The notes under the pieces: model-generated
The model's database searches: none
Told to the model about the DNA's origin: nothing
The model's input: the letters and a program-made list of their open reading frames with translations, nothing else
Shown here: positions 45,715 to 55,518 of the stretch, piece after piece
How positions within the stretch are numbered: position 1 is the first letter of the stretch
Layout: every line of letters starts with the position of its first letter
Position numbers and translations under genes: made by a program
Origin: Desulfocapsa sp.
GTDB taxonomy: Bacteria > Desulfobacterota > Desulfobulbia > Desulfobulbales > Desulfocapsaceae
Reading direction: 5' to 3'
Length of the DNA stretch: 64,000 nt
NCBI GenBank assembly: GCA_030145625.1
Contig: JAQYVF010000003.1
Coordinates: 1 to 64,000 of the forward strand

Positions 45715-46365
45715 ATGAATATTCAAGACCTCAGTGTTCTGGATGAAGAACATATCTGCCCTTCCTGTAAAAACAAAATGTCCTGCTGTGAAGTACCGCC
45801 CGTCCATGTTGGTGATGGGCTCGGCTGGGGCTCCGAAGTTCTTTTCATCTGTCTCAATGATGACTGCCCGACCTTTTCCAAGGGATGGGATAAAGTTGAT
45901 GTCAATTACGGCCACAAAGCCTCCTTTAGAAACATGCAACTTCCTGGTAGTACTGAACAAAATGTAATGATGGTCGGCAGCAAGATTGCCTTTACAGGGA
46001 GCATCGTAGACCCCGAAGAGATGCGTGAACAAAACGAACGCTATACAAATGAGAAAAAGGCCCTGGTAGCCCTTGAAACCTGCCTTCAAGACAAGGATAT
46101 CACTCCTGTCATGACCCTTGTTCTCGACGAAGCGGCTGACAACATCGGCCGATTAAAAGCGATTGATCTACTTCAAGAGTTCAATGATCTGTCTTGTGTC
46201 GACGCCATCAGAAACCATAGCTTCAAAAAGACGGACCTTGAACAAAAATGCAATCTGGTTATTTCACAGATGCTGAAGAACCATTTCAAGAAGGAATGTC
46301 CCTATTGTGCCGAGATTATCAAGGCCCAGGCGAACAAATGTATGCATTGTAATGCAGATCTTTAA
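45715..46365 (+). CDS. Protein with N- and C-terminal zinc ribbons
   Basis: A 216-residue soluble protein. The N-terminus holds CPSCKNKMSCC (C15, C18, C24, C25) and CLNDDC, a likely first zinc site. The C-terminus ends CPYCAEIIKAQANKCMHCNADL, a standard double-knuckle zinc ribbon. The middle (about 95-185) is helical. I see no catalytic motif. ATG 45715 has a good AAGGAG upstream. Related proteins are hypothetical zinc-ribbon proteins; the role is unknown. It lies directly ahead of tRNA-His. Confidence 0.6.
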   Translation: MNIQDLSVLDEEHICPSCKNKMSCCEVPPVHVGDGLGWGSEVLFICLNDDCPTFSKGWDKVDVNYGHKASFRNMQLPGSTEQNVMMVGSKIAFTGSIVDPEEMREQNERYTNEKKALVALETCLQDKDITPVMTLVLDEAADNIGRLKAIDLLQEFNDLSCVDAIRNHSFKKTDLEQKCNLVISQMLKNHFKKECPYCAEIIKAQANKCMHCNADL

Positions 46366-48681: not shown

Positions 48682-49920
48682 ATGGATATACAACAACACA
48701 GAATCGTCATTACCGGTGTTGGCCTTGCTGCGCCAAACGCCGACAATCTCACCGATTTTCGCAAGAAACTTTTAGCAGGTACCAGTGAAATAACTGAGAT
48801 TGATCTACGCTACTTCGGTAAAGCTCCTGCCGGTATCTGCAGTTTTCCCGAAACTAAATACAGAAAGAAAAAAGAAAACAAACGGGGAACCCGAGCCGGT
48901 TGTCTTGGCGTTTACTGTGCCAACGAAGCCCTGGCAGACGGAAATCTACCAATTGACCACTACTCCTCTTCCCGCATAGGGGTCTATGTTGGACTGACAG
49001 AACATGGTACTGTAGAAACGGAAAATGAGGTCTACAACATCAGCCAGTACGACTATAACGTTGACTATTGGACCCATCATCACAACCCAAGGACCGTACT
49101 CAATAACCCGGCCGGTGAGATCACCATGAATCTTGGCATCACCGGACCTCACTATGCCATTGGTGCGGCCTGTGCTGCCGGCAATGCCTCTCTCATCCAG
49201 GGCGTGCAGATGCTGCGCCTGGGGGAAGTGGACATGGCCCTTGCCGGAGGGATATCCGAATCAACCGGTTCATTTGGCATCTTTGCCAGTTTTCAGGCCC
49301 AGGGTGCTCTAGGTGCTGCGGAAGACCCCAGACAGGCTTGCAGACCCTTTGACCTTTCCCGTAACGGTATTGTTGTTTCGGAAGGTGCCTGTATTTATGT
49401 CCTTGAACGGTTGGATAACGCCCTGGCACGAGGAGCAAAAATTTATGCGGAAATCGTCGGCTATGCCATGAACTCAGATGCCCGTGACTATGTCCTACCC
49501 TATGATGTCCGTCAGGCAGAATGTATTGAACTGGCGCTTGAAAGAGCTGGACTTACCCCTGAGGATATCGATATTATCAATACCCATGCCACTGGTACAA
49601 AACAGGGTGATATTGAAGAATGTAAGGCCATCCGAAAAATCTTTGCCAATGCACCTGAGACCTATATTAACAATACAAAAAGTATTATCGGTCATGCCAT
49701 GGGGGCAGCCGGTGTTCTTGAACTTGCAGGAAACCTTCCTGCCTTTGAAGACAATCTTGTGCACCCGACCATCAACGTCAAAAATCTTGATCCTGAGTGC
49801 AGCCTGAACAATATGGTTATAGATCGTCCGGTTCAGCTTGATTCGGTGCAAACCATCCTCAACAACTCCTTTGGCATGGTAGGAATCAACTCTGTAGTCA
49901 TTGTAAAAAAATACCAATAA
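48682..49920 (+). CDS. Beta-ketoacyl-ACP synthase (FabF-like)
   Basis: A 412-residue ketosynthase with the full C-H-H active site: C164 in GAACAAGNAS, H302 in NTHATGTKQGD, H338 in NTKSIIGHAMGAAG. It condenses an acyl starter with malonyl-ACP. The segment around residues 105-140 (Y/N/H-rich 'NISQYDYNVDYWTHHHNPRT') is unlike housekeeping FabF and probably lines the substrate pocket, hinting at an unusual acyl chain. It opens the operon with ACP, two CrtI-like oxidoreductases, ketoreductase and dehydratase. Function in the cluster is inferred from context. Confidence 0.87.
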   Translation: MDIQQHRIVITGVGLAAPNADNLTDFRKKLLAGTSEITEIDLRYFGKAPAGICSFPETKYRKKKENKRGTRAGCLGVYCANEALADGNLPIDHYSSSRIGVYVGLTEHGTVETENEVYNISQYDYNVDYWTHHHNPRTVLNNPAGEITMNLGITGPHYAIGAACAAGNASLIQGVQMLRLGEVDMALAGGISESTGSFGIFASFQAQGALGAAEDPRQACRPFDLSRNGIVVSEGACIYVLERLDNALARGAKIYAEIVGYAMNSDARDYVLPYDVRQAECIELALERAGLTPEDIDIINTHATGTKQGDIEECKAIRKIFANAPETYINNTKSIIGHAMGAAGVLELAGNLPAFEDNLVHPTINVKNLDPECSLNNMVIDRPVQLDSVQTILNNSFGMVGINSVVIVKKYQ

Positions 49921-50091
49921 ACAACCATTTGTATATAAACAAGATGTTTTTTAAAATAATTATAATAAAGTCATTCCAGGTATGGTATAAAGAGCAGTTT
50001 TCCTGACGCATCTGGACCTATTACTGTTTTATTTTATACTGATATAACATCTTCAATTGAAGATTCAGGCCACCCATGGCCGGAGAATGAT

Positions 50092-50343
50092 ATGACACGT
50101 GACGAAATAAAAGACCTTATTCTGGAAATCATAGAAGATATTGATGAAGACGCCGATTTTGATGCCCTTCAGGCAGACAAACCCTTACGCGATCAGCTCG
50201 ATCTCGACTCAATGGATTTTCTGGATATCGTAATGGAATTACGCAAACGCCATAAGCTCCAGATCCCTGAAGAGGATTACCCTCAGCTTGCCACCCTCGA
50301 CTCCTGCGTGAACTACCTGGAGCCTCTTCTTACCGACGCGTAA
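50092..50343 (+). CDS. Acyl carrier protein
   Basis: An 83-residue ACP with phosphopantetheine-accepting S40 in LDLDSMDFLDIV, acidic helix 2 and normal length. A good GGAGAA ribosome-binding site lies before ATG 50092. It is 171 bp after the ketosynthase and only 3 bp before the next gene, so it is a dedicated carrier for this operon. It presumably carries the growing chain between the KS, SDR, dehydratase and oxidoreductases. Confidence 0.92.
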   Translation: MTRDEIKDLILEIIEDIDEDADFDALQADKPLRDQLDLDSMDFLDIVMELRKRHKLQIPEEDYPQLATLDSCVNYLEPLLTDA

Positions 50344-50346
50344 CAA

Positions 50347-51732
50347 GTGCATGTGCCCTTTCTGATTATCGGCGGCGGTCTTTCCGGACTAGCCGCCGCT
50401 CTTCGTTTTGCCCGTTTTCTACCCGACGTTCTGATCCTTGAGAAACATTCACGTGTGGGCGGTCTCAACTCCTATTACTACCGAAATAACAGGCTGTTTG
50501 AGACAGGTCTGCATGCCATCACCAATTACGCCCCTGCCAAGACAAAAAATGCTCCCTTAAATCGCTTGCTACGGCAGCTGAAAATCAAGCGTAACGAACT
50601 GGATCTGCATCAACAAATAGAAAGCGAAGTCCGATTCCTTAACCAAGAAGCCCTTCGTTTCTCCAATGACTTTTCCTTGCTTGACGCAGAAATTGCTGCC
50701 AAATTCCCCACCTCCTATAATCGTTTCAGACAACTGCTGCAACAGATAGAGGATTACGATCCTTTTCGTCCCGCGCCCTTTATTTCTGCAAAAAAAATTC
50801 TACATGAGACCCTTGGTGACAAACTACTGGTCGACATGCTGCTTTGTCCGCTGATGTACTACGGATCTTCTCTGGAAAACGACATGGACTTTGGCCAGTT
50901 TGTCATCATGTTCCGGGCAATTTTTCTAGAAGGGATGTTCCGTCCGGGAGGGACAATCAAAGACCTCCTTGACCTGCTCCTGAACCATTATCGAGACTAC
51001 GGTGGGAAAATCAGGACCAAGGCTGCCGTCTCCCATATTCTCTATTCGGGGAAAAAGGTAATTGGAGTCGAACTTACAAACGGTGAGGAGATTCGTTGTG
51101 ATTACCTGCTTTCCACCATCGGTTCAGAGGAGACCTTTGCACTTCTGGATAAGCCATCTCCCCTGGAATCTTTGCCAAGACTCGGCTTTGTGGAAACCAT
51201 ATTTGAACTTTCTCCAGAGACTTCCCTGGAACATTCTGAGAACCGCACAATCATCTTCTACAATTCTTCTAAAACATTTTCTTATCAACAACCACAATCG
51301 CTTGTTGACTTTGACAGCGGCGTAATCTGCATGCCGCAGAATTTTCAAGATCTCCCCCCTTCTCCCTTCAAAGAGGTGCGAACTACCCATTTGGCAAGTT
51401 ATGACCAATGGTACAATCTTCACGACAATCAATCTTCTTATAATTCGGCTAAAGATGATACAGCCCTTGCATCACGTGAAGTTGCTGAGAAAATCCTTGG
51501 TAATTTTGCCGAAAACATTGTATATCGTGATACTTTCACGCCGTTGACCATTGAACGTTTTACCGCAAAAAAGCAAGGAGCCATTTACGGCAATCCGGTA
51601 AAAATCAAAGATGGCGACATAGGATATGACAACCTCTTTCTGGCAGGGACAGACCAAGGATTCCTGGGCATTGTAGGTTCCATGTTAAGTGGTGTCTCCA
51701 TTGTCAACCAGCATATCCTTTCCCGCCTCTAA
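50347..51732 (+). CDS. CrtI-like FAD-dependent oxidoreductase 1
   Basis: A 461-residue flavoprotein of the phytoene desaturase/amine oxidase class: FAD motif GGGLSGLAAALRFA at about 9-22, 'EKHSRVGGLNSYYYRNNRLFETGLHAI', and C-terminal 'DNLFLAGTDQGFLGIVGSMLSGVSI'. Residues in the middle do not place it with carotenoid enzymes, and no phytoene synthase is near, so the substrate is probably an acyl chain on the adjacent ACP (desaturation, isomerisation or saturation). The GTG start follows the ACP stop by 3 bp. Distinct from the second copy downstream: only the FAD framework is shared. Confidence 0.83.
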   Translation: MHVPFLIIGGGLSGLAAALRFARFLPDVLILEKHSRVGGLNSYYYRNNRLFETGLHAITNYAPAKTKNAPLNRLLRQLKIKRNELDLHQQIESEVRFLNQEALRFSNDFSLLDAEIAAKFPTSYNRFRQLLQQIEDYDPFRPAPFISAKKILHETLGDKLLVDMLLCPLMYYGSSLENDMDFGQFVIMFRAIFLEGMFRPGGTIKDLLDLLLNHYRDYGGKIRTKAAVSHILYSGKKVIGVELTNGEEIRCDYLLSTIGSEETFALLDKPSPLESLPRLGFVETIFELSPETSLEHSENRTIIFYNSSKTFSYQQPQSLVDFDSGVICMPQNFQDLPPSPFKEVRTTHLASYDQWYNLHDNQSSYNSAKDDTALASREVAEKILGNFAENIVYRDTFTPLTIERFTAKKQGAIYGNPVKIKDGDIGYDNLFLAGTDQGFLGIVGSMLSGVSIVNQHILSRL

Positions 51733-51771
51733 ACCCAAATACAGACTTTCATTTCCACCAAAAACTTCATT

Positions 51772-53181
51772 ATGCCAGTTCCATTTGCTCAAGCCAGTGA
51801 TAAATATGATGTTATTGTAATCGGTTCAGGTCTAGGCGGACTAACCTCTGCCAATCGCCTTGCTTATTGCGGCTACAAGGTCCTCCTCCTTGAATTTCAC
51901 AGTCAACTTGGGGGGCTTGCCACCTGGTTCAAACGAAAGGGGCATATTTTTGATGTCTCTCTGCACGGTTTTCCTTACGGAATGGTAAAGACCTGTAAGA
52001 AATACTGGAACAGGGAAATCATGAACTCCATTGTTCAGCTCAAAAATATCATTTTTGATAATCCTCAGTTTCACCTGAAAACCACATTTGACCGTATAGA
52101 CTTCACAGAGAAACTTCTGTCTCATTTCAAAATTCCGCAATCAACCATCGATGCCTTTTTTACACGAGTGGCCGGGATGAATTTCTATGACGATCAAACC
52201 ATGACCACCAGGGAACTTTTTGATGAATACTTCCCCGGCCGCAGTGACGTCCATCGCCTGCTCATGGAGCCCATCAGCTACGCCAACGGCTCCACCCTTG
52301 ATGATCCTGCCATTACCTATGGAATCGTCTTTTCAAATTTCATGAACAAAGGAGTGTTTACCTTTGAAGGCGGAACCGATAAGCTGATCGGAATGATGGC
52401 CAATGAGCTTGAAAAAAATGGTGTCACTATCTGTACCAACTGCAAAGTGGATCGTATCGTCGTTGATAAAGGCCAGGTAAGAGGCGTTGAGTGCAGAGGT
52501 AAAATGATCTCCGCCCGAAGTGTAGTCTCCAATTCCGGGATCACCAATACCATTTATAATCTGGCAGGAAAAGACGCCTTCTCCGACACCTTCATGGAAA
52601 AGGCTGATAAGATACGAGTCAACAACTCATCCTGCCAGGTCTACATGGGCATTAAAAAGGAAGAATCCTTTGTAGATATTGGCGATCTGCTCTTCACCTC
52701 CACGGCACCTGAGTTCAACTCTACCGAGCTCTGCGACCTGCATACCCGCTCAAAGACTTTTTCCGTCTATTATCCAAAAACCAGGCCCGGCCATGATCGT
52801 TACACCATAGTGGCCTCGATGAACGCCAACTACGATGACTGGAAAAAATTTAATAAAGAACAGTATGCAGCAGAGAAAGACGCTCTCATTGGAAGGACCC
52901 TTGTTGACCTTGAGCGCTATCTCCCCGGCGTCAAAGATAAAATAGACTGGGTAGAGGCCGCCACTCCCAGCACCTTTAATCGCTACACCCTTCATACCCA
53001 AGGCACCTCTTTCGGGACCAAATTCGAGGGACTCGACGTCTCTCGCTCTATATTCAAAGAGGTGGGTGGACTCTTTCATGTAGGCTCAGTTGGGATTATT
53101 ATGTCTGGATGGCTAGGGGCCATCAATTACGGTGTCATTGCCTCCAACGATGTAGACGCATTCATGCGCAGCAGGGAATAA
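51772..53181 (+). CDS. CrtI-like FAD-dependent oxidoreductase 2
   Basis: A 469-residue flavoprotein of the same class. FAD motif VIGSGLGGLTSANRLAYCG, 'EFHSQLGGLATWFKRKGHIFDVSLHGFPYG', a long central substrate region, and the closing 'LFHVGSVGIIMSGWLGAINYGVIASNDV'. It resembles phytoene desaturase- and retinol saturase-like proteins that act on polyene chains. Together with oxidoreductase 1 it gives the operon two different redox steps on an acyl chain. It lies 39 bp after the first. No membrane anchor seen. Confidence 0.83.
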   Translation: MPVPFAQASDKYDVIVIGSGLGGLTSANRLAYCGYKVLLLEFHSQLGGLATWFKRKGHIFDVSLHGFPYGMVKTCKKYWNREIMNSIVQLKNIIFDNPQFHLKTTFDRIDFTEKLLSHFKIPQSTIDAFFTRVAGMNFYDDQTMTTRELFDEYFPGRSDVHRLLMEPISYANGSTLDDPAITYGIVFSNFMNKGVFTFEGGTDKLIGMMANELEKNGVTICTNCKVDRIVVDKGQVRGVECRGKMISARSVVSNSGITNTIYNLAGKDAFSDTFMEKADKIRVNNSSCQVYMGIKKEESFVDIGDLLFTSTAPEFNSTELCDLHTRSKTFSVYYPKTRPGHDRYTIVASMNANYDDWKKFNKEQYAAEKDALIGRTLVDLERYLPGVKDKIDWVEAATPSTFNRYTLHTQGTSFGTKFEGLDVSRSIFKEVGGLFHVGSVGIIMSGWLGAINYGVIASNDVDAFMRSRE

Positions 53182-53187
53182 GCAAGC

Positions 53188-53928
53188 ATGCAAGATTTCA
53201 CAGGACAAAAAGTTGTTATCAGTGGGGCCAGCCGAGGCATTGGCAAAGGAATCAGTCTCGCCTTTCTCCGACAAGGTGCCACAGTTATAGGCGTTTATGG
53301 CGGAAACCGCGAAGCGGCGGACAAGCTGCAGGAGGAATGCAGTGAGTTTGGTGAGCGACTCCAGCTCCATCAGTGCGATGTGTCCAAGGCCTCTCAGGTT
53401 GAGACCTTTTTTCAACAAGTTGAAGAACAATTTGACACCATTGATATCCTGATTAACAATGCAGGTATCCGCCGTGACAAACTCCTGGCCCTGATGGATA
53501 TGGAAAGCTGGCAACAGGTACTTGACATCAACCTGACCGGAACCTTCACCATGTCGCAAAAAGCGGTTTTGTTGATGCTCAAACAGAAATATGGTCGCAT
53601 TATCAACATCACCTCTCCTGTTGCCAGCATGGGTTTTGCAGGCCAGACGAATTATGGAGCTTCCAAGGCCGGCCAGATTGGTCTTACGAGGAGTCTTTGC
53701 AAGGAAACCGCCAGAAAAAAAATCACGGTCAACTGCATCTCTCCCGGCTTCATCGATACCGATTTACTCGACGACCTTTCTGATGAGCAGATGAAGGCCT
53801 ATAAAAAATTGGTCCCAATGCGTCGATTCGGTAAGATTGAGGAAGTTGCTGCTGCAGTACTTTTTCTCGCCTCAAAAGACGCCGCCTACATCACCGGTTC
53901 TGTACTTGATATCAACGGAGGACTGTGA
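53188..53928 (+). CDS. FabG-like 3-ketoacyl-ACP reductase (SDR)
   Basis: A 246-residue short-chain dehydrogenase. Nucleotide motif SGASRGIG (12-19), NNAG at 90-93, catalytic S143, Y156 and K160 (YGASK), and the C-terminal 'GSVLDINGGL'. The residue after the first strand and the R at 16 favour NADPH. It reduces the ketone made by the ketosynthase. Starts 6 bp after oxidoreductase 2 and is followed after 3 bp by the dehydratase. Confidence 0.9.
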   Translation: MQDFTGQKVVISGASRGIGKGISLAFLRQGATVIGVYGGNREAADKLQEECSEFGERLQLHQCDVSKASQVETFFQQVEEQFDTIDILINNAGIRRDKLLALMDMESWQQVLDINLTGTFTMSQKAVLLMLKQKYGRIINITSPVASMGFAGQTNYGASKAGQIGLTRSLCKETARKKITVNCISPGFIDTDLLDDLSDEQMKAYKKLVPMRRFGKIEEVAAAVLFLASKDAAYITGSVLDINGGL

Positions 53929-53931
53929 TCA

Positions 53932-54372
53932 GTGATTGAAGATATAGCAATCACCGACCTTATTCCACACCGCCCCCCCTTTCTCTGGGTCGACACCCTG
54001 TTGGAATATGATTCCTTGTCACTGGTAGCAGAAAAACACATCCCGGAAACGCTCGATGTTTTCCAGGGACATTATCCCGAACATCCCATCCTTCCCGGTG
54101 TACTGCTTTGCGAGGCCCTCTTCCAAACTGGCGCCATCCTTATCGCCCTCATCCTTAAAGAGAGCAAAGATACGCGATCAGGAGTCCCTGTATTGACCCG
54201 CATAGAAGGCGCCAGGTTCAAACGCCCGGTAGCCCCTGGTGACACAATTCGCATGCAAGTCCGCATCAAAGAGAGCCTTGGCGGAGCCTGGTTTTTAAAG
54301 GGAACTCTGCGCATAAAAGGGAAGGTGGCTGTCAGCGTTGACTTTTCCTGTACCCTGGCAGAACTGCAATGA
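53932..54372 (+). CDS. FabZ/FabA-like hotdog dehydratase
   Basis: A 146-residue single-hotdog dehydratase. The signature 'FQGHYPEHPILPGVLLCEAL' has catalytic H47 and E61, matching FabZ's GHFPxxPxxPGVLxxEAL. It removes water from 3-hydroxyacyl-ACP to give a trans-2-enoyl chain. GTG start. It ends in the 4-base overlap ATGA with the next small ORF, so translation of the two is coupled. Confidence 0.88.
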   Translation: MIEDIAITDLIPHRPPFLWVDTLLEYDSLSLVAEKHIPETLDVFQGHYPEHPILPGVLLCEALFQTGAILIALILKESKDTRSGVPVLTRIEGARFKRPVAPGDTIRMQVRIKESLGGAWFLKGTLRIKGKVAVSVDFSCTLAELQ

Positions 54373-54569
54373 CACACGTAACGGAACAAGAAGAACTGGA
54401 ACCTCTTTTTACCTGCATCTTCTGCAATGAACAAAGTGGTCACCTGCAAGGGTGCTGACACAACGCCATTGTTATCTGCACGGCGTGCGGAATGGAAACT
54501 GCAGCATCTGCATACAACGATCAACTGCAGAAGCATATCGACAACCTTTGTCTGCTTGCTGAAGATTGA
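54369..54569 (+). CDS. Small zinc-ribbon protein with an in-frame UGA, possible selenoprotein
   Basis: ATG 54369 overlaps the dehydratase stop. The frame runs 29 codons to C29, then TGA (54456-54458), then 36 more codons without a stop to 54569. Read through, it gives C16-I-F-C19, a GC-U30-H motif and C37-T-A-C40, so the zinc-knuckle pairs lie on both sides of the TGA, and 'HNAIVICTACGMETAASAYND' continues coding-like. A hairpin 17 nt past the UGA resembles a bacterial SECIS. Alternatives: a nonsense mutation in a normal gene, or a sequencing error. The two CxxC pairs favour function. Role in the lipid operon unknown. Confidence 0.55.
54476..54490 (+). promoter_or_regulatory. Bacterial-SECIS-like hairpin
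   Basis: CTGCAC/GTGCGG forms a 6-bp stem (one G-U) with a 3-base loop GGC starting 24 nt after the UGA. Bacterial SECIS hairpins sit just downstream of the UGA with a short loop holding G at its first positions. Drawn by eye only; folding and SelB binding are untested. Confidence 0.4.
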
Positions 54570-54816: not shown

Positions 54817-55518
54817 GTGCAGCTCTCAATTTCCAACATGATCATGCATGCCGGTCCCATGGGACAGATGGTTATGCTCACCCTCCTGATTTTTTCTCTT
54901 GCCTCATGGTCCATCGTCTTCATGAAGGTTAGACTGTTTAAAAAAGCCGGCAACGAAAGCGAGGAATTTCTCGACTCTTTCTGGTCTTCCAATACGCTGA
55001 GCGATGCTGCTGCTTCTGCTGAACGCTACCCATTAAGCCCTGAAGCCATGATCTTCTCCTCAGGCTTTGCGGAACTGCAAAAAATCAACAAAATCCGTAA
55101 CCGTAAGGAAGGAAGAGAAGGTTCTGAAACTCTGGAGATGCAGCTGGCTACTATGGATAACCTTAAACGGGCCATACGTCGTGCCGAATCCCAGGAAATC
55201 AACGAACTCGGCAGGTCTCTTCCCTTTCTGGCAACCACTGGATCCGCTGCGCCCTTCATCGGACTTTTTGGTACAGTATGGGGAATCATGGCTTCATTTC
55301 ATGATATCGGTCTTCGTGGTTCAGCATCCCTGGCAGTCGTTGCTCCCGGCATCTCTGAAGCCCTGGTAGCGACAGCAGCAGGCCTCGCAGTGGCTATTCC
55401 TGCAGTAATCGCCTATAATTATTTTTCCAATAGACTGAACGAAGTTGAAAATGAAATGGAAAATTTTTCCACTGACTTTCTCAATCTGGTGGAAAGAGAT
55501 CTGCTGAGCAAGGTTTGA
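54817..55518 (+). CDS. tolQ: Tol-Pal system inner-membrane protein TolQ
   Basis: A 233-residue MotA/TolQ/ExbB protein with three membrane helices: about 17-37, then a long cytoplasmic loop, then about 135-160 ('LPFLATTGSAAPFIGLFGTVWGIMASF') and about 170-195 ('GISEALVATAAGLAVAIPAVIAYN'). With TolR it forms the proton-driven motor that powers the Tol system at the division site. GTG start after GAGGA. First gene of tolQRAB-cpoB. Length matches (about 230). Confidence 0.95.
   Translation: MQLSISNMIMHAGPMGQMVMLTLLIFSLASWSIVFMKVRLFKKAGNESEEFLDSFWSSNTLSDAAASAERYPLSPEAMIFSSGFAELQKINKIRNRKEGREGSETLEMQLATMDNLKRAIRRAESQEINELGRSLPFLATTGSAAPFIGLFGTVWGIMASFHDIGLRGSASLAVVAPGISEALVATAAGLAVAIPAVIAYNYFSNRLNEVENEMENFSTDFLNLVERDLLSKV

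Follow-up and report, generated by a model that had tools for sequence, protein, structure and literature searches.

The window analysed here, a 64,000-nucleotide stretch of Desulfocapsa sp. DNA, carries a small reading frame between a FabA-like dehydratase gene and tolQ (Table 1). Its ATG overlaps the dehydratase stop by four bases (ATGA), and the frame then runs for 29 codons, meets a TGA, and stays open for another 36 codons up to a second TGA, with the residues G-C-U-H around the first TGA if U (selenocysteine, Sec) is placed there. The first-pass annotation had located the start overlap, both open stretches, the two CxxC motifs and the G-C-U-H motif just where we find them. A standard gene caller would end this protein at residue 29. 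Because openings of at least 36 codons also follow 17% of the TGA triplets in the window, the open stretch is not significant by itself; the signal beyond chance, as read from the alignments described below, is that the TGA and the protein downstream of it are kept in 55 of 56 homologues from related genomes. Upstream, a forward-strand run (48682–54372) encodes a beta-ketoacyl synthase, an acyl carrier protein, two FAD amine-oxidase-like proteins, a short-chain reductase and the FabA-like dehydratase, and resembles a polyene or fatty-acid-type biosynthetic cluster.

Table 1 Features of the putative selenoprotein locus, in window coordinates.
Feature	Position	Strand	Basis or remark
FabA-like dehydratase gene	53932–54372	+	PF07977, E 8.4e-19
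Selenoprotein gene (very probable), 66 residues, Sec at 30	54369–54569	+	Ending TGA at 54567–54569
First CxxC knuckle, residues 16–19	54414–54425	+	Invariant in 49 aligned members
UGA codon very probably read as Sec, residue 30	54456–54458	+	TGA in 100 distinct genomes, TGC (Cys) in two
Hairpin, probable SECIS element, 7 bp, loop GGC	54475–54491	+	Recoding test, covariation, local fold
Second CxxC knuckle, residues 37–40, encoded inside the hairpin	54477–54488	+	Invariant in 49 aligned members
tolQ (MotA/TolQ/ExbB) gene, downstream	54817–55518	+	PF01618, E 6.2e-37

Homologues were collected by searching the protein, with Cys at position 30, against 144 related genomes, 56 of which hold a true homologue (three extra rows at E 0.005–0.01 were unrelated and are excluded from this count). 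The codon aligned to residue 30 is TGA in 55 of the 56, and the alignment continues beyond it. The exception, L024 in genome G002 of the same genus, carries CGA (Arg) in place of the Sec codon and its frame breaks off shortly downstream, on both of which counts it looks decayed; its genome has selC. Another copy, L027 in genome G016, keeps the Sec TGA and has two in-frame TAG codons in the region of the C-terminal helix, and is possibly truncated or decaying. At the level of the phylum, a profile of the aligned members run against 395 genomes identified 52 bearers, with TGA in 50 and TGC (Cys) in two, the latter (L199 and L200) belonging to one genus and placing their Cys in the Sec column; with both sets combined, one decayed genome stands beside those counted in Table 1. 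The columns invariant in a 49-member alignment are the four knuckle Cys, Gly28 and Sec, and all 97 scorable members of the clade have Gly two residues before the Sec or Cys (hereafter the G-x-U clade). No relative of the selenoprotein was found among the viral contigs searched. A sequencing error was rejected as the source of the TGA, since the identical triplet recurs in many separately assembled genomes and a base-calling error is thereby very unlikely.

The alignment thus has the pattern looked for in a bacterial selenoprotein, with the UGA aligned to UGA or Cys codons and homology on both sides of it. The first-pass annotation had asked whether homologues run past the UGA and carry Sec or Cys there, and they do, with Cys in two genomes. 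It had also listed what would tell against readthrough, including homologues that end at the UGA, a sense codon other than Cys in its place and a genome lacking the Sec machinery; none of the testable items was found, the sole non-Cys sense codon being the CGA of the decayed copy.

Judged by substitution patterns, purifying selection acts on the sequence after the UGA: within the window's genus, the members give a pN/pS of 0.29 upstream of the codon and 0.38 downstream of it, compared with 0.96 beyond the terminal stop, while the two other frames give 0.95 and 1.73. These values bear on one alternative, that the UGA is a true stop and the gene yields a 29-residue peptide or is decaying, with a chance frame behind. 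The commonness of equally long openings behind the window's TGA triplets and the one decayed relative, L024, count in its favour, but the conservation of downstream residues in 55 homologues, the constraint past the UGA and the Cys found at the position in two genomes make a true stop highly improbable.

A second alternative, in which the UGA is read as some residue other than Sec (by reassignment to Trp or by near-cognate readthrough), draws on the fact that sequence alone cannot tell which residue goes in. However, UGA terminates both the neighbouring dehydratase gene and the selenoprotein gene itself, and hence serves as a stop elsewhere; the alternative residue in intact homologues is Cys and never Trp, for which reason UGA as Trp was rejected; and the genome encodes a complete Sec machinery. 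The latter comprises a tRNA-Sec gene (selC) with anticodon TCA, selB (374 bits), selA (491 bits, truncated at the edge of a contig) and two selD genes (L229 and G000:C211:62964–63893) with one in-frame TGA each, which is the full set that the first-pass annotation had proposed to look for. On this evidence, we give the insertion of another residue only a very slight chance. Across the phylum, selC occurs in 48 of the 50 TGA-bearing genomes versus 344 of 395 genomes overall, and because it is nearly universal here this co-occurrence is consistent with Sec insertion but uninformative.

Downstream of the UGA, the RNA can form a core hairpin, CUGCAC-GGC-GUGCGG at 54476–54490, which one more U-A pair extends by a base on either side, and which presents a GGN loop about 24 nt past the UGA, as sought in a SECIS-like hairpin. 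We compared its stability in 55 members with a null of synonymous recoding that used the codon usage of each locus: the mean energy was −7.3 kcal/mol versus −2.9 kcal/mol when recoded (mean z −2.5), and in the window −8.5 versus −3.3 kcal/mol (z −3.2). By pair counts, 84.6% of cells are paired, and cells changed on both sides number 15 versus 3.0 in shuffles; the covariation score was 0.170 versus 0.106, with none of 500 shuffles as high. RNAalifold retains only four of eight pairs. In the window, the minimum-energy structure for the 48 nt that begin with the UGA is not this hairpin, which becomes the optimal fold once the 14 nt at the UGA end are omitted. Hence the hairpin that the first-pass annotation had proposed does lie where it was drawn and is conserved and covarying, but it is not the best global fold of those 48 nt. 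Collectively, these patterns strongly suggest that a conserved, covarying hairpin, stabler than recoding would leave it, steers Sec insertion here.

With the TGA kept in 55 of 56 homologues, selection past the UGA, the hairpin and the Sec machinery all agreeing, the readthrough favoured by the first-pass annotation holds up, and we are highly confident that the gene encodes a 66-residue selenoprotein with Sec at the UGA. In the mechanism that we propose, the hairpin would direct the SelB/tRNA-Sec pathway to this UGA, where the ribosome would insert Sec.

Structurally, the AlphaFold model (pLDDT 75.5) has strands at residues 24–27 and 34–37, Sec30 in the turn between them, and a helix at residues 46–65. 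A Foldseek search gave no match at E <= 0.001, and its top rows, all weak, were zinc ribbons of translation factors and ribosomal proteins; a second look with VIA-align reached a best Z of 4.1, and a PDB profile search gave only E values of 0.01–1. From the model and these weak matches, a zinc-ribbon fold is likely for the window protein. The protein is accordingly pictured as a predicted zinc-ribbon-like domain, made up of a pair of CxxC knuckles and a helix at the C terminus, with Sec predicted to occupy the turn that separates the knuckles and to keep the near-fixed spacing CxxC-x9/10-U-x6-CxxC. The helix contains a Cys in 66 of 98 members (Cys61 in the window protein), and this Cys could pair with Sec.

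The genomic neighbourhood of the gene varies among lineages. In 30 loci, all from the window's taxonomic family apart from one from another family, a FabA-like dehydratase gene lies directly upstream, and in 28 loci of the window's family tolQ lies downstream; in other lineages the neighbours, named by eye from sequence, are topA, dnaX-ybaB-recR, coaE and kinases. In the window, a gene 8 kb upstream (45715–46365, forward strand) encodes a protein of 216 aa whose C-terminal part resembles a zinc ribbon (Zn_ribbon_3, slightly below the cut-off). Its homologues (47–57% identical) are encoded immediately before the selenoprotein gene at five loci (L039, L047, L053, L055 and L060) from four other families.

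While most lineages have neighbours other than dsr genes, several families carry the selenoprotein gene 0.2–6 kb from them. Two genomes of family f43 have the selenoprotein gene some 0.2 kb ahead of dsrA and in the same orientation, with dsrB and an apparent dsrD coming next; in f62, f69 and f91 it is found next to dsrMKJOP, on the 3′ side, and in f69 a single gene intervenes; in f105 it lies 4.8 kb from dsrA. DsrB, DsrK, DsrJ, DsrO and DsrP were confirmed well above cut-off with NCBIfam equivalog models. These dsr-linked families may share ancestry. Alongside the dsr-linked gene, a conserved opposite-strand block (L201, L204, L207, L208, L221, L223, L225 and L226) encodes a TPR protein, a member of the DVU0298 family that begins with a Cys-rich segment, and a small protein rich in Cys. 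The window's own genome has dsrA and the selenoprotein gene on separate contigs.

Co-occurrence extends the link beyond these neighbourhoods. Among the 395 phylum genomes, dsrA is present in 51 of 52 bearers versus 139 of 343 non-bearers, and, from family lists tallied by hand, in all 18 bearing families versus 54 of 107, both being raw counts that ignore kinship. As far as gene content can tell, then, the bearers are almost only bacteria with the sulfite reductase used to breathe sulfate. We found no report of a dsr association of this selenoprotein group in the literature searched.

Functionally, the co-occurrence with dsrA and the linkage to dsr genes lead us to posit, as a hypothesis, a selenol factor of dissimilatory sulfite reduction. 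The protein would be a small selenol redox or persulfide-handling factor serving DsrAB, DsrC and DsrMKJOP, its selenol acting on a sulfur intermediate or a partner thiol while zinc holds the scaffold. We hold such a role only tentatively, and about as tentative is the specific form in which the G-x-U clade would serve the pathway as a dedicated accessory dependent on selenium, acting for example on the trisulfide of DsrC or on sulfur intermediates once they are released.

The reading that we consider the likelier one is a real selenoprotein with a general role, such as thiol redox, metal binding or zinc-ribbon regulation of nucleic acid or protein, whose association with dsrA would stem from shared ancestry and anaerobic life with no special tie to sulfite reduction. 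It fits the differing neighbours among lineages, the overlap of the window copy with a dehydratase gene and the resemblance, if weak, to zinc ribbons of the translation machinery; it accounts less readily for dsrA in all but one of the bearers and for two distinct dsr arrangements, one with the gene ahead of dsrABD and the other with it next to dsrMKJOP. If the clade were nonetheless such a dedicated accessory, sulfate respiration in many sulfate reducers would include a component that has gone unrecognised. Within the literature searched, the dsr link is the first concrete functional hypothesis for these small selenoproteins, and it points to the genomes with dsr-linked copies.

The family itself was predicted earlier and is not new; what is new here is the functional lead from the dsr association. 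The first-pass annotation recognised no family; kin of the protein are already on record. The model NF041197 ('CxxC_Se_CxxC', dual CXXC motif small (seleno)protein) corresponds to OS_HP3, predicted in 2007 with the motif RxU (PMC13188914), and a 2026 inventory also places 'hypothetical protein DW', with the motif GxU, under NF041197 (PMC13188914). DW was predicted by deep-Sep in 2025 (PMC12013277), and its accession SMF39960.1 had been entered under OS_HP3 in 2022 (PMC9312934). No function for this selenoprotein family was reported in the literature searched.

Among NCBIfam models, NF041197 is the only related one. The window protein scores 23.8 bits against its cut-off of 40, short of membership by score, and only one of six members scanned (L040, 40.4) exceeds the cut-off, so the G-x-U clade lies mostly below the threshold of the only curated model. 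Profile comparison by hhalign nevertheless relates the clade to NF041197 with a probability of 96.4% and aligns Sec with its Cys/Sec column. Evolutionarily, in a tree of 124 sequences the G-x-U clade stands apart from the OS_HP3 members and does not group with them (support 100/99), although only 52 columns underlie this tree and long branches meet in it; both Cys members fall within the Sec clade. By profile and tree, then, the G-x-U clade is homologous to NF041197/OS_HP3 yet forms a clade of its own. The window's own genome also contains an NF041197 paralogue with Cys (L086, G000:C30:55022–55180), and within the same taxonomic order the OS_HP3 members found carry Cys and the G-x-U members Sec.

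Compared with known systems, the Lar restriction alleviation protein (TIGR03655, PF14354) is likewise a small two-knuckle zinc ribbon, and some members match it weakly (E about 1e-3); however, every score is under the curated cut-offs (the best, from other members, being 19.6 versus 39.6 for TIGR03655 and 18.5 versus 28.6 for PF14354) and the window protein itself has no Lar match, and Lar was rejected. NF041197/OS_HP3 shares the layout CxxC-x9-[U/C]-x6-CxxC with Sec or Cys in the same column, but it has R-x-U/C where the window's clade has G-x-U. DW has the G-x-U motif, the tie to NF041197, an occurrence in sulfate-reducing Desulfosarcina, and both Sec and Cys homologues; given that G-x-U is found in every scorable member, the clade is, by motif, probably 'hypothetical protein DW'.
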